64,000 nt of DNA from an uncultured Actinomycetes bacterium (GTDB lineage Bacteria; Actinomycetota; Coriobacteriia; Coriobacteriales; Atopobiaceae). The stretch is taken from the NCBI GenBank assembly GCA_900315165.1, contig OMXZ01000006.1, positions 1-64,000 on the forward strand. Reading direction: 5' to 3'. Positions 9,466 through 54,157 of the stretch are shown here, piece after piece. The first letter of the stretch is position 1. Each line of letters begins with the position of its first letter. A program made the translations under genes and the position numbers. A model generated the notes under the pieces. That model was not told where the DNA came from and did no database searches. It saw only the letters and a program-made list of their open reading frames with translations.

Positions 9466-9625
9466 CGGTGACGACAAGCTCGTAGCCGCAGACAACGAGT
9501 TCGTAGTGCCTGACAACGATGACGTTGTTTTGCGAGCTACTGGTCCTCTCAGCTCACAGATTGACGGTGCTGTTGTTTGCGGCTACGAGTTCGTTGTTGA
9601 TGCCTACGAAGTCTTTGTCGGTGGC
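9466..9625. repeat. R1 intergenic inverted repeat, copy 1
   Basis: Two imperfect arms of about 70 bp (9470-9538 and 9551-9621) face each other across a 12-nt centre, closing with GAGCT/AGCTC. Each arm contains degenerate tandem units built on acaacgagttcgtag. Related elements occur at 20345-20492 and 53977-54157. It lies after purL in a gene-free 446-bp interval; a 163-aa plus-strand reading through it is an artefact of the repeat. Confidence 0.75.
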
Positions 9626-40368: not shown

Positions 40369-40809
40369 TTAGGCCCTCCAATCGATCTTGACGGGGTTCT
40401 GGGCGGTGTGCGGGTGCTCGGGGCCGGCGTAGACCTTGAGCTTCATACCCTGCTGACGGCCGAGGGTGGTCTTGGGGAGCATGCCCTTGACCGCGTGCTC
40501 GATTACGCGCTCGGGGTGCTTCTCCATGGCCTCCTTGAACGACTCGAAGTGCATGCCGCCCAGCCAGCCGGAGTAGCGCCAATAGCGCTTGTGCTCGGCC
40601 TTGACGCCGGTCAGGCGGACCTTGTCGGCATTGATGATGACGACGAAGTCACCCGTGTCGGCGTTGGGGGTGTACTGGGGCTTGTTCTTGCCGCGCAGAG
40701 CATTGGCCGCGGTCGTCGCGAGGCGACCGAGGGTCGCGCCATCGGCGTCGATGAGCACCCACTTGCGCTCGACTTCGCCGGCCTTGGCGTAATGAGTCGA
40801 CTTCTTCAC
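40369..40809 (-). CDS. rplM: 50S ribosomal protein L13
   Basis: A 146-residue L13 recognised from [17 protein letters not shown] and YRYSGWLGG-like and GMLPK segments. The start codon is GTG (40809) with GGAGG 6 nt upstream. L13 often represses its own operon; the roughly 95-nt leader before the gene contains inverted sequence around tctctgac...gtcagtccagaga that could be a binding site. Confidence 0.96.
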
Positions 40810-40909
40810 TTGACTCCTCCACTTACCTACAGGTGCGAGACCGTCTCTGGACTGACGACCTCTGAATTTGCTTGTCAGAGATTACGGGGCTCTGCAAAGC
40901 AGCCTTCCA

Positions 40910-40937
40910 AGTATAGCGCGCCGAAATCCACACGTAA
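40910..40937 (-). promoter_or_regulatory. promoter of rplM-rpsI
   Basis: On the minus strand TATACT (plus 40910-40915) has a weak -35, TTACGT, 16 nt upstream. It lies between the acyltransferase stop and rplM and gives a leader of about 95 nt. Confidence 0.6.
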
Positions 40938-40963
40938 GCGCACATTTTATTCCCACAAATGGG

Positions 40964-42127
40964 CTAGGGGGCTGGGGCCACCGGGTCAACCGGGGTCTGC
41001 GCCCGCGGGCCGGCATCGGTCCGCCGCCGGCCGATCAGCCAGGGCAAATGACGCTGGATCAGCAGGTCGACGGGAACGATCAGCGCAATCGAAACGAGCG
41101 CGAGCGAGCAACCAGCCGCGAGCTGGACGGGCAGGACCGCAGCCGCCACATCGACGCCAAGCAGCGAGAAGAGCACGAGTTTGCAGAGATTCATTGCGGG
41201 GGCGGACAGAGCGTAATAGACGATGCTGTCCCTACCGACATACTCGAGGGGCGGGCACGTCTCGATCGCACGAGCAATCAGGATGACCGCGCTTGCGCCC
41301 AGGTAGGCGACGACCACGGTGAGGCCGGCGCTCACGGGTGCCGGCGTCCCGTTGACAACGCAGACGAAATCGCGGCTGATCAGTGTGTCTGGCAGGACGG
41401 TCCGTGCAACGAAAGCGAAGGCGACCGCAAAGCCGAGGCCCGTCAAAGCCGCCTGGGGGCGCTCCGCCTTGGCGAACACGTCGCGCAGGGCGACGCCGAT
41501 CAGGATGTAGCCCGCCGCCTCGACGCCGCGGACGAGATGGAAGGGCAGCTTGAGGGCCGGGCCGACGACCCACCAGAGCTGGACGGCGACCGTGAGGGCA
41601 AAGCCCAACAGTTGGCAGACATTGATACGGACCTGATCGCTTGCATCCTCAAGCGCCCTGAGAACGCCGAAGGCGAAGAGCTGACCCCAAAAGTAGGCCC
41701 AGAGGAACCAGAGCCCTTCCCCCATCACGAGCACATCCCACGCCGTCTGCCCCACGTCGGAGGTAGCCGCCCCGAAGGTTGCCGCAAGCTCGGGATGAGC
41801 CGTCAGCATGAGGGGCTTTGCGAGGTAATAGAGGGAGAAGACGTAATAGGGCACGAGCAGGGTCCGGGCACGACGAGAGGCAAATCCTCGGAAGTCGCGA
41901 CCGCGGACGTTCAAGACCAGCCCGCCCAATATGAAAAAGAGGGGCATGTGGAAGAGGTAGAGTCCCGTGTGCAAGTCATCGAGTGCGGGGAACCATACGC
42001 TGGTGCCGTTGCCCGTCGTCAAATGGCCGAGCGCGACAAGGACGATGGCCAGGCCGCGGGCCAGGTCGATCCAGCGCAGGCGGACCTGGTCCCCGCCCGC
42101 TGGCATCTGCGTCGCTCCGCTCGTCAC
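40964..42127 (-). CDS. acyltransferase-3 family membrane protein
   Basis: A 387-residue integral membrane acyltransferase (Acyl_transf_3). Family features are RLRWIDLARGLAIVLVALGH at the start (cytoplasmic Arg and membrane His), FHMPLFFILGG and SRRARTLLVPYYVFSL, with about ten hydrophobic segments. There is no extracytoplasmic SGNH domain. The start is GTG 42127, overlapping the stop of the patatin gene as GTGA, so translation is coupled. Its acceptor (glycan, lipid or peptide) is unknown; coupling to a patatin phospholipase suggests acyl-chain transfer between lipids and another acceptor, which is inference. Confidence 0.85.
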   Translation of the reverse strand: MTSGATQMPAGGDQVRLRWIDLARGLAIVLVALGHLTTGNGTSVWFPALDDLHTGLYLFHMPLFFILGGLVLNVRGRDFRGFASRRARTLLVPYYVFSLYYLAKPLMLTAHPELAATFGAATSDVGQTAWDVLVMGEGLWFLWAYFWGQLFAFGVLRALEDASDQVRINVCQLLGFALTVAVQLWWVVGPALKLPFHLVRGVEAAGYILIGVALRDVFAKAERPQAALTGLGFAVAFAFVARTVLPDTLISRDFVCVVNGTPAPVSAGLTVVVAYLGASAVILIARAIETCPPLEYVGRDSIVYYALSAPAMNLCKLVLFSLLGVDVAAAVLPVQLAAGCSLALVSIALIVPVDLLIQRHLPWLIGRRRTDAGPRAQTPVDPVAPAP

Positions 42128-43038
42128 GCTTCCTCATCCCCGGGATGCAGCCATGCGTCGAGCTCGGCCAGGCGCCCTTCTGCCTGCCGACGTCCCTGCA
42201 GGTAGAGGTCGAGCAGGGGCCAGCCGTCGTGCTCCGCCGTGCCGACCTCGACAGGCTTGTCCGGTGCGAAGACGAAAGCCTGGCCCGACTTCTCGAGCTG
42301 CCAGAGCAGGTCGCGCTGAGCGTTGTAGCGGATGTGGCGCGTACGGAGCGCCTCGATGAAATAGGGATAGTCGTCGTAGCGGCGCGAACGGATCGCGACG
42401 TTCTGGACGGAGGCGTCCTTCTGATAGCCACGGTCCTGCGTAGCAATCACAAGGGCACGAATTGCCGGGACATAGCCCTCGGGCAACTCGGCCGGGGCGC
42501 TCGGGAGGCCAAGCGCGGCCTCGAAGGGGATGGAGTCGGTCGTGCCGCCATCGAGGTAGCGGTGGCCGCCGATCTCCACCATGGTCGACACAAGGGGCAG
42601 GCTGGCGGAGGCGCGGACGCAAGGCACGTCGTCGGGCAGGGTACGCACGGGCAGGTAACCCGCGGTGCCGAAAACGACGTCGGAGGCAACGGCGTACATC
42701 TCCATCGGATTGGCGTTGAAAGTGTCGTCGTCGCAGGGGTCGAGCTTGTTCTGGACCTCCTCATAGACGAAGTCGCCGCCAGTCAGATTGCCGGTGCGCA
42801 CGAAGGACATGAACGACATGAAGCGGCGATCGTCGCGGAAAGTCAGCATGATGCGCATGGTACGGCCAATCTGGTGGCTCTTGAAACTCACGGCGTTCAT
42901 GGCGCCCGCCGACGTCCCCCACACGCTCGCAAAGTCGTCGCCGAAGCCATTCTCCATCAGGACGTCCAGGATACCCGCGGTGAAGATGCCGCGATACCCC
43001 CCGCCCTCGAGCACCAGCGCGATCCGATCCTCAGCCAT
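42124..43038 (-). CDS. patatin-like phospholipase
   Basis: A 304-residue Ser-Asp dyad hydrolase of the patatin family. The oxyanion loop is LEGGGYRGIF, the nucleophile Ser43 is in GTSAG, and the catalytic Asp is in DGGTTDSIP. The C-terminal 100 residues match the extended bacterial form with DUF6363-like helices. ATG 43038 has AGGAG 5 nt upstream; a longer reading runs into the hairpin repeats and is rejected. It follows the ribosomal operon end on the same strand and overlaps the acyltransferase gene. Confidence 0.88.
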   Translation of the reverse strand: MAEDRIALVLEGGGYRGIFTAGILDVLMENGFGDDFASVWGTSAGAMNAVSFKSHQIGRTMRIMLTFRDDRRFMSFMSFVRTGNLTGGDFVYEEVQNKLDPCDDDTFNANPMEMYAVASDVVFGTAGYLPVRTLPDDVPCVRASASLPLVSTMVEIGGHRYLDGGTTDSIPFEAALGLPSAPAELPEGYVPAIRALVIATQDRGYQKDASVQNVAIRSRRYDDYPYFIEALRTRHIRYNAQRDLLWQLEKSGQAFVFAPDKPVEVGTAEHDGWPLLDLYLQGRRQAEGRLAELDAWLHPGDEEA

Positions 43039-43074
43039 AGCGTCTCCTTCTCTCGCGCAGCATTCTACCCTGAC

Positions 43075-43142
43075 GGAGACCCCACTGCGTGTGCGCACGG
43101 CGCACTCCGAATGACGCCGTGCGCACACGCAGTGGGGTCTCC
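43075..43142. repeat. long perfect hairpin H1 (28-bp arms)
   Basis: Arms 43075-43102 and 43115-43142 are perfect 28-bp inverted repeats around the 12-nt loop cactccgaatga. It is the nearer of two hairpins between rplX and the patatin gene. There is no T tract, so if it ends transcription it does so by structure alone. It may instead be a mobile palindromic unit. Confidence 0.85.
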
Positions 43143-43167
43143 TCCCCGTTCGGGCTCGATAACAGCA

Positions 43168-43239
43168 GGGACCCCTCCTCCGCATGTGTGCGGCGTGTCA
43201 TTCGGAGTGCACGCAGCGCGCATGTGGAGGAGGGGTCCC
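43168..43239. repeat. long hairpin H2 (30-bp arms), loop complementary to H1
   Basis: Arms 43168-43197 and 43210-43239 match at 26 of 30 positions around the 12-nt loop tcattcggagtg, the exact reverse complement of the H1 loop. The unit as a whole resembles an inverted, diverged copy of H1. It begins 28 bp after the rplX stop in the direction of transcription. Confidence 0.85.
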
Positions 43240-43267
43240 GTCGGTTCCCTATGTCAGTGGGGATCGC

Positions 43268-43585
43268 TTAGAACTGCGCGCCGCACTTCTTGCAGACGCG
43301 GACCTTCTTGCCCTCGGCGTTGTGGTCGTGACCGACGCGGGTGGCCTTGCCGCAGGAGGGGCAGACGAGCGCGACGTTGCTCACGTCGATCGCAGCCTCC
43401 TTCTCGACGATGCCGCCCTGCTGGTTGGCCTGGGTCGGCTTGGTGTGGCGCTTGACGATGGCCACGCCCTCCACGACGACCTTGCCCTCGGAGGGCAGGG
43501 CGCGCAGGACCTCGCCACGCGTGCCCTTGTCCTTACCGGAGAGGACCTCGACCTGGTCGCCCTTCTTCACGTTCATTTTCGGCAT
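43268..43585 (-). CDS. rplX: 50S ribosomal protein L24
   Basis: A 105-residue L24 with the KOW motif KKGDQVEVLSGKDKGTRGEV, GIVEKEAAIDVSNV, and a C-terminal zinc-ribbon-like pair of CxxC motifs (CPSCGK, CKKCGAQF). It is the last gene of this ribosomal operon, where rplE would normally follow; the long hairpins come next. GGAGG lies upstream of the ATG. Confidence 0.96.
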   Translation of the reverse strand: MPKMNVKKGDQVEVLSGKDKGTRGEVLRALPSEGKVVVEGVAIVKRHTKPTQANQQGGIVEKEAAIDVSNVALVCPSCGKATRVGHDHNAEGKKVRVCKKCGAQF

Positions 43586-46017: not shown

Positions 46018-46278
46018 TTAGTCAGCCTTGTGGCCGCGGAAGGTACGGGTCGGGCTGAACTCGCCCAGCTTGTGACCGACCATGGACTCGGTGATATAGA
46101 CGGGGACGTGCTTGCGGCCGTCGTGGACGGCGATCGTGTGGCCGACCATCTCGGGGAAGATGGTGGAGCTGCGCGACCAGGTCTTGATGACCTCTTTCTT
46201 GCCGGACTCGTTCATCGCGGTGACGCGCGCGAGAAGGCGGGTCTCCACGAACGGGCCCTTTTTCAGGCTTCTGCTCAT
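46018..46278 (-). CDS. rpsS: 30S ribosomal protein S19
   Basis: An 86-residue S19: [35 protein letters not shown] and [14 protein letters not shown]. It sits on the 30S head by S13. It lies 21 bp after rplB. Confidence 0.97.
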
Positions 46279-53976: not shown

Positions 53977-54157
53977 GCGACAGCCACGCAGCCCATGACG
54001 ACGAGCTCGTAGCTGTTGACAACAGGCACGCAGTCCCCGACGACAAGCCCGCCGTTTTACGAGCTGGGAGCCCCGCCAGCTTCCAAAACGGCGTCGTCGT
54101 TGTCCGCGGCTGCGTGGTAGTCGTCGGGCGCTGCGTGGCCGTCGTCGGCCGCGAGCG
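53977..54157. repeat. R1 intergenic inverted repeat, copy 3
   Basis: Arms of about 70 bp carry gacgacgagctcgtag-like units. The apex is a strong stem: CGCCGTTTT (54050-54058) with AAAACGGCG (54085-54093), and inside it AGCTGG (54062-54067) with CCAGCT (54076-54081). Confidence 0.75.

Follow-up and report, generated by a model that had tools for sequence, protein, structure and literature searches.

Why should two long hairpins, separated by 25 nt, carry loops that are exact reverse complements of each other in the gap that follows a ribosomal protein operon? This question is raised by H1 and H2, located next to rplX in the window, by which we mean the whole stretch of 64,000 nt that was analysed. 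The original prediction had offered several answers: kissing loops or a long alternative pairing in RNA, a palindromic mobile unit, or a transcription barrier. We propose here that H2 and H1 probably form a transcription-boundary element, the loops of which would be mirror images as inverted copies, and the arms of which would be kept at the DNA level.

Anatomy and gene context of the hairpin pair

Re-computation confirmed the tandem arrangement, the arms (28/28 and 26/30), the 25-nt gap and the exact reverse complementarity of the loops, and H1 and H2 indeed appear as related inverted units. The features of the locus are as follows.

43075-43142, + strand: H1, perfect 28-bp hairpin, loop orientation opposite to that of H2; absent from the closest relative
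43103-43114: H1 loop, 12 nt, CACTCCGAATGA, exact reverse complement of the H2 loop on the + strand
43143-43167: spacer between H1 and H2, 25 nt
43168-43239, - strand: H2, long hairpin 28 nt past the rplX stop, at the site of the operon terminator; sense loop CACTCCGAATGA
43198-43209: H2 loop, 12 nt, TCATTCGGAGTG on the + strand; includes CGGAG, a C-GNA-G triloop motif on the + strand
43268-43585, - strand: rplX (ribosomal protein L24), final gene of the S10-type operon here (Pfam ribosomal_L24 and KOW; open reading frame list)
42124-43038, - strand: patatin-like phospholipase gene, next and co-directional (Pfam Patatin and DUF6363)
43062-43067, - strand: TAGAAT, candidate -10 box for the patatin-like gene, separated from the H1 end by 7 nt; a -10-like match only

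The two arms of H1 (43075-43102 and 43115-43142, 28 nt each) are 100% complementary, the 30-nt arms of H2 form 26 Watson-Crick pairs out of 30, and these two hairpins are the strongest inverted repeats within the 64-kb window. A random exact match between two 12-nt loops has a chance of about 1 in 1.7e7 (4^12). The predicted RNA of the region was much more stable than shuffled sequences (z = -11.7), H2 forming a stable GC-rich hairpin of -52 kcal/mol in minus-strand RNA. Its GC-rich outer stem, of 13-14 bp, has the usual size of a terminator, to which an inner stem and the 12-nt loop are added. Within the window, only tRNAs reached the Rfam gathering score; H1 and H2 gave none, and their sub-threshold matches were to unrelated microRNA models.

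The original prediction had placed the pair after rplX. This location stands, with one precision: both rplX and the patatin-like gene are on the minus strand, so that H2 comes first in transcription. The order is thus the rplX stop, 28 nt, H2 (shortly downstream of the operon's last gene), 25 nt, H1, 7 nt, TAGAAT (43067-43062) and the patatin start at 43038. A consensus promoter scan listed no full promoter at the TAGAAT site, the context of which, GGGTAGAAT, is common to the closest relative (G034, or RUG025); the latter also carries an 89% identical relative of the patatin-like gene. Gene order itself is modified at this place, the ribosomal operon being interrupted after rplX (window 40369-43585) and followed by the patatin-like gene, an acyltransferase-3 gene and rplM instead of rplE. 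In G034, patatin likewise follows rplX, with rplM about 4 kb beyond, and in another genome (G033) rplE is retained some 300 nt past the rplX terminator.

The window belongs to G000, a 2.3-Mb draft of 80 contigs from a metagenome-type assembly. Its named relatives include rumen actinobacterium RUG025 and Olsenella MAGs, which points to a family of Coriobacteriia close to Olsenella. The loop 12-mer occurs at two places in this draft, H1 and H2 only, and BLAST of the region against the same 2.3 Mb returned itself and chance-level short matches only; beyond sequence search, long hairpins were surveyed in sampled stretches covering about a quarter of the genome. Other palindromic sequences were encountered in G000: dispersed MITE-like palindromes on GACAAAAGGGGACGTTTCCC (L087 3513-3578, L092 2445-2501, L094 8344-8399), REP-like repeats ACCAACGATACGGGGGTGCGG in inverted pairs (L094 12175-14990, L139 1561-1706, L143 4223-4274), and recurring long imperfect inverted repeats with CGACGACAAG or TACGAG-type words (window 9492-9597 and 54018-54125; L089 18033-18142). 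Four long hairpins of G034, listed under G034/G140 (L168 1511-1590, L174 1507-1586, L187 1478-1569, L182 1486-1561), share a 24-nt loop, TCAYGGGCTTCGCGNCCRATAGTC, with differing arms, each just past a gene end; an 18-nt-loop version exists in G000 (L100 19485-19560).

The rplX terminator slot and a similar module in the family

In our sample of 140 genomes, most family members have, 20-30 nt beyond the stop codon of rplX, a plain intrinsic terminator with a stem of 8-14 bp and a T-rich tail, and rplE, where it is present next, begins a few hundred nt past this terminator in most of the family. A long hairpin takes the place of the plain terminator in G000, in G034 and in most species of genus g33. 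The gene order of G034 is rplX, one hairpin (L054 4823-4892, loop CGCTTCGCAAGA), then patatin. This hairpin aligns with H2 at the same gene order, which indicates vertical descent for the two and places H2 in the terminator slot. In both, the outer stem of 13-14 bp is followed by an A.C mismatch, then by CAUG/CAUG, a stretch of disturbed pairing and an inner stem that carries a loop of 12 nt. G034 retains this layout and the arm part GCACACATGCG, whereas letters of the arms and loop have otherwise changed; 8 of 12 loop letters are common to both hairpins. No counterpart of H1 was present in G034, the sole close relative with the rplX-patatin order.

With regard to its position, H2 would be the terminator of the S10 operon in an extended form. 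Like intrinsic (Rho-independent) terminators, it has a GC-rich stem within 20-30 nt of the stop codon, and it replaces a plain terminator at the orthologous place. Unlike them, the elements described here have arms of 28-30 bp, a conserved apical module, a U-poor tail and Watson-Crick-only stems, along with an inverted second copy at the promoter that follows. The tail after the H2 stem is only TGCTGTTA, a consensus scan lists no terminator at H2, and tails following long hairpins have a mean of 3.7 T out of 8, versus 4.8 for plain ones (p = 0.005, obtained on related sequences that are not independent). Classical intrinsic termination by H2 may thus be weak. Hairpin clusters lacking a U run have nevertheless been described as terminators (PMC8355165).

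A module, TTCC-TNC-GAGAAGT-G-CGC-TNC-GCG-RA-ACTTCTC-TNC-GGAA, was found in genus g33 (31 genomes) and in some g34, at 0-14 copies per g33 genome. It constitutes the conserved apical part of hairpins whose outer arms vary by site and pair nearly perfectly, and it sits in the rplX terminator of most g33 species. Covariation in the long rplX hairpin of g33 was marked, with 98.5% of cells paired, both-side changes at 18 of 27 pairs, and values that none of 500 shuffles reached for four of the five measures. The g1 module (H2 and L054) bears no more than a resemblance to the g33 module (AAGTRCGCTTCGC), short of proven homology, and the two may be convergent. As observations on the module itself, this dispersed terminator-tip element with three C-TNC-G sites (L207-L310, in g33 and g34) has no Rfam entry, and one contig (G097 C1) bears a run of three copies with a period of 78 nt, at 46174, 46252 and 46330. 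A conserved short motif recurring in terminator hairpins recalls the uptake-signal pairs of Neisseria and Haemophilus (PMC2267715), from which the module differs by its 0-14 copies per genome at most, its asymmetry and its location at the tip; nothing points to an uptake motif spread over the genome.

Placement of the module was oriented. Among the 74 copies with paired arms, 65 were in sense, lying past the end of a gene on their own strand, in most cases by 8-60 nt; nine were antisense, 45-137 nt upstream of the start of the next gene, several being then followed by -10-like boxes, and none lay in a divergent gap. Genes around the copies were called using a simple GC3 script, and -10 boxes were judged by eye. 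Without the 18 rplX copies, sense and antisense stood at 47:9 (binomial p = 2.6e-7, a value which is too small, as copies that are partly orthologous are treated as independent). Between species, 72 g33 copies fell into 26 orthology clusters. One species, G093, carries a plain rplX hairpin (L250), whose outer stem is that of the module-bearing hairpins and whose loop has 5 nt. We considered it as an empty insertion site and rejected this candidate: G093 is nested among module-bearing species in the rplX-region tree, so that loss of the module by deletion appears at least as likely. Directly after this plain terminator, about 90-200 nt past rplX, are several GTACCTGGTACAAGTGGGGC palindromes.

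At four loci of the g33 genomes, the gap between co-directional genes holds a sense copy followed by an antisense one; ten such pairs were counted, with a core spacing of 69-90 nt. The H2-H1 pair has the same layout, with a core spacing of 95 nt. Several g33 species keep such pairs at orthologous boundaries, both members being intact. The pair-search pattern matches both orientations, and orientation was assigned together with the placement and pair listings.

RNA switch, mobile palindrome or folded DNA

Complementary loops could kiss, or H1 and H2 could open and pair with each other, and such an RNA switch would control the rplX and patatin transcripts. In line with this, a 12-bp duplex of the exactly complementary loops reaches -18.8 kcal/mol, and the two units are able to pair over 46 nt at 72%. 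However, separate hairpins (-126 kcal/mol) are favoured by about 26 kcal/mol over the inter-unit structure (-99.5 kcal/mol) and are the first to form during transcription, G034 has a single hairpin, and loop complementarity is exact in only two of the ten g33 pairs, the eight others presenting 1-3 loop mismatches. The kissing or alternative pairing put forward in the original prediction is thus not supported, and we regard such a switch as extremely improbable.

Mobility was the second suggestion. A REP/BIME-type palindrome, mobilised by a RAYT (Y1) transposase, would insert at gene ends in inverted pairs, and inverted pairs, sites downstream of genes and dispersed g33 copies with differing flanks are indeed what we observed. 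Palindromes of the REP, BIME and REPIN types, GTAG- or CGTC-tagged, likewise lie downstream of genes, often in pairs of opposite orientation, and CGTC-tagged REPs have been described without a dedicated transposase (PMC3733652). The present stems are, by contrast, much longer: REP stems measure 5-13 bp, with a GTAG or CGTC tag at one end, and those of CGTC REPs 8-9 bp with loops of 4-5 nt (PMC3733652), as compared to arms of 28-30 bp and a 12-nt loop here. Moreover, outer arms differ at each site, the H1/H2 unit is unique in the 2.3 Mb of G000, with a single pair, and many g33 sites are orthologous between species. Copy number was unrelated to Y1 genes across the 31 g33 genomes (rho 0.07, p 0.70), and two genomes (G084 and G096) carry module copies without a Y1 match. 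The H1/H2 pair is not a classical REP; mobility by REP/RAYT was rejected on the absence of correlation with Y1 genes, established in g33 only, and the mobile-unit reading as a whole seems to us quite improbable.

Related candidates were also abandoned. Phage, plasmid and viral collections returned no match, and an origin from phages or plasmids was dropped. The search for the loop 12-mer elsewhere, as had been advised, revealed no further copy in its own genome; the exact 12-mer is present in 12 other family genomes, never in a hairpin, and in 10 matches among viral contigs, none in a hairpin, so that it was not retained as a family-wide motif. The flank CYGAC, which stands beside several hairpins, also precedes plain terminators (e.g., L027) and, at H1, is part of the promoter region shared with G034; its reading as a target site was therefore dropped.

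The nature of the stem pairs bears on the selected form. Selection on a sense RNA hairpin should lead to G.U far above A.C, which was seen in 29 plain rplX terminators (346 Watson-Crick, 26 G.T and 2 A.C) and was absent in 73 g33 elements (1567 Watson-Crick, 8 G.T and 8 A.C; Fisher p = 0.002 for G.T against A.C, also too small given partly orthologous copies). Every wobble-type mismatch in H2 and L054 reads A.C in sense and G.T on the opposite strand, a pattern that speaks against the sense RNA as the only target of selection. The equality of G.T and A.C in long arms suggests that these were shaped at the DNA level, and not only as RNA: either template switching would rewrite both arms together, or the folded DNA itself would be used. 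Template switching has been described as a process by which RNA hairpins can be created and maintained (PMC8794818) and which, between inverted repeats, homogenises arms and inverts spacers (PMC8604942). Perfect arms, compensatory changes and a possible spacer inversion are features that the present elements share with the quasi-palindromes perfected in this way, but a mutation process alone leaves the gene-end orientation and the conserved tip motif unexplained.

The use of folded DNA deserves attention with respect to the unpaired sites. On the sense strand, the three unpaired sites of the g33 module read C-TNC-G in 56/62, 53/62 and 55/62 cases, N being free, which corresponds on the opposite strand to C-GNA-G, as a GNA triloop and a GNA/GNA internal loop. 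C-GNA-G is an exceptionally stable triloop and internal-loop motif in DNA. The + strand, antisense to rplX, could thus fold as single-stranded or extruded DNA, and this hairpin or cruciform would be recognised as DNA by gyrase, a nucleoid protein or another hairpin-binding enzyme at transcription/supercoiling boundaries, RNA termination being secondary. The motif at all three g33 sites, CGGAG on one strand in both window loops and CGAAG in the loop of G034, the lack of G.T excess (8:8 versus 26:2) and the greater stability of H2 on the + strand, by 12.5 kcal/mol (RNA parameters), are in line with this proposal. By contrast, template-switch homogenisation without function also predicts strict pairing (PMC8794818, PMC8604942), the elements are positioned and oriented relative to gene ends as an RNA element would be, and a search covering Y1 transposases found no cognate protein. 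We hold such a DNA site to be possible, albeit unlikely, and CGNAG to be a lead towards a DNA function rather than its demonstration. It is just as tentative to propose that boundary elements of this family constitute a class of their own, made of DNA hairpins with a CGNAG tip on one strand (and, for g33, a GNA/GNA internal loop), whose folded DNA would be bound by a putative protein, whose sense/antisense pairs would mark both sides of a transcription unit boundary and which would have replaced ordinary terminators.

A candidate transcription-boundary element

The third suggestion, a transcription barrier, fits best with the observations: H2 lies in the terminator slot of the S10 operon, and further gene boundaries also have sense/antisense pairs. 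From a mechanistic point of view, H2 would end the rplX transcripts and cap them against 3' decay. H1 would be another such unit, inverted and placed directly upstream of the next gene's promoter, where, judging from its position only, it may block or terminate transcription coming in the opposite direction from the patatin promoter region, or back up H2 against read-through. The mirror-image loops would result from inverted copies, or from the inversion of one loop by template switching, and kissing would not be needed. Near-perfect arms would be made and maintained at the DNA level via hairpin fold-back, as the pair statistics suggest.

Alternatively, only H2 may matter, H1 being a local duplicate of the terminator hairpin, devoid of its own function, with arms perfected and loop inverted through polymerase template switching. 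Its absence from G034, its perfect arms and a loop identical to that of H2 are in accordance with the homogenised arms and inverted spacers reported in PMC8604942. Several g33 species, however, retain pairs at boundaries that are orthologous, neither member being degraded, and we find a functionless H1 rather unlikely.

Terminators are usually viewed as independent, sequence-free hairpins. Here, a conserved and oriented tip module is carried across a genus by otherwise unrelated terminators and recurs in sense/antisense pairs. This offers a testable case for the origin and upkeep of long terminator hairpins, by template switching versus selection, and for the two-sided insulation of highly expressed operons.
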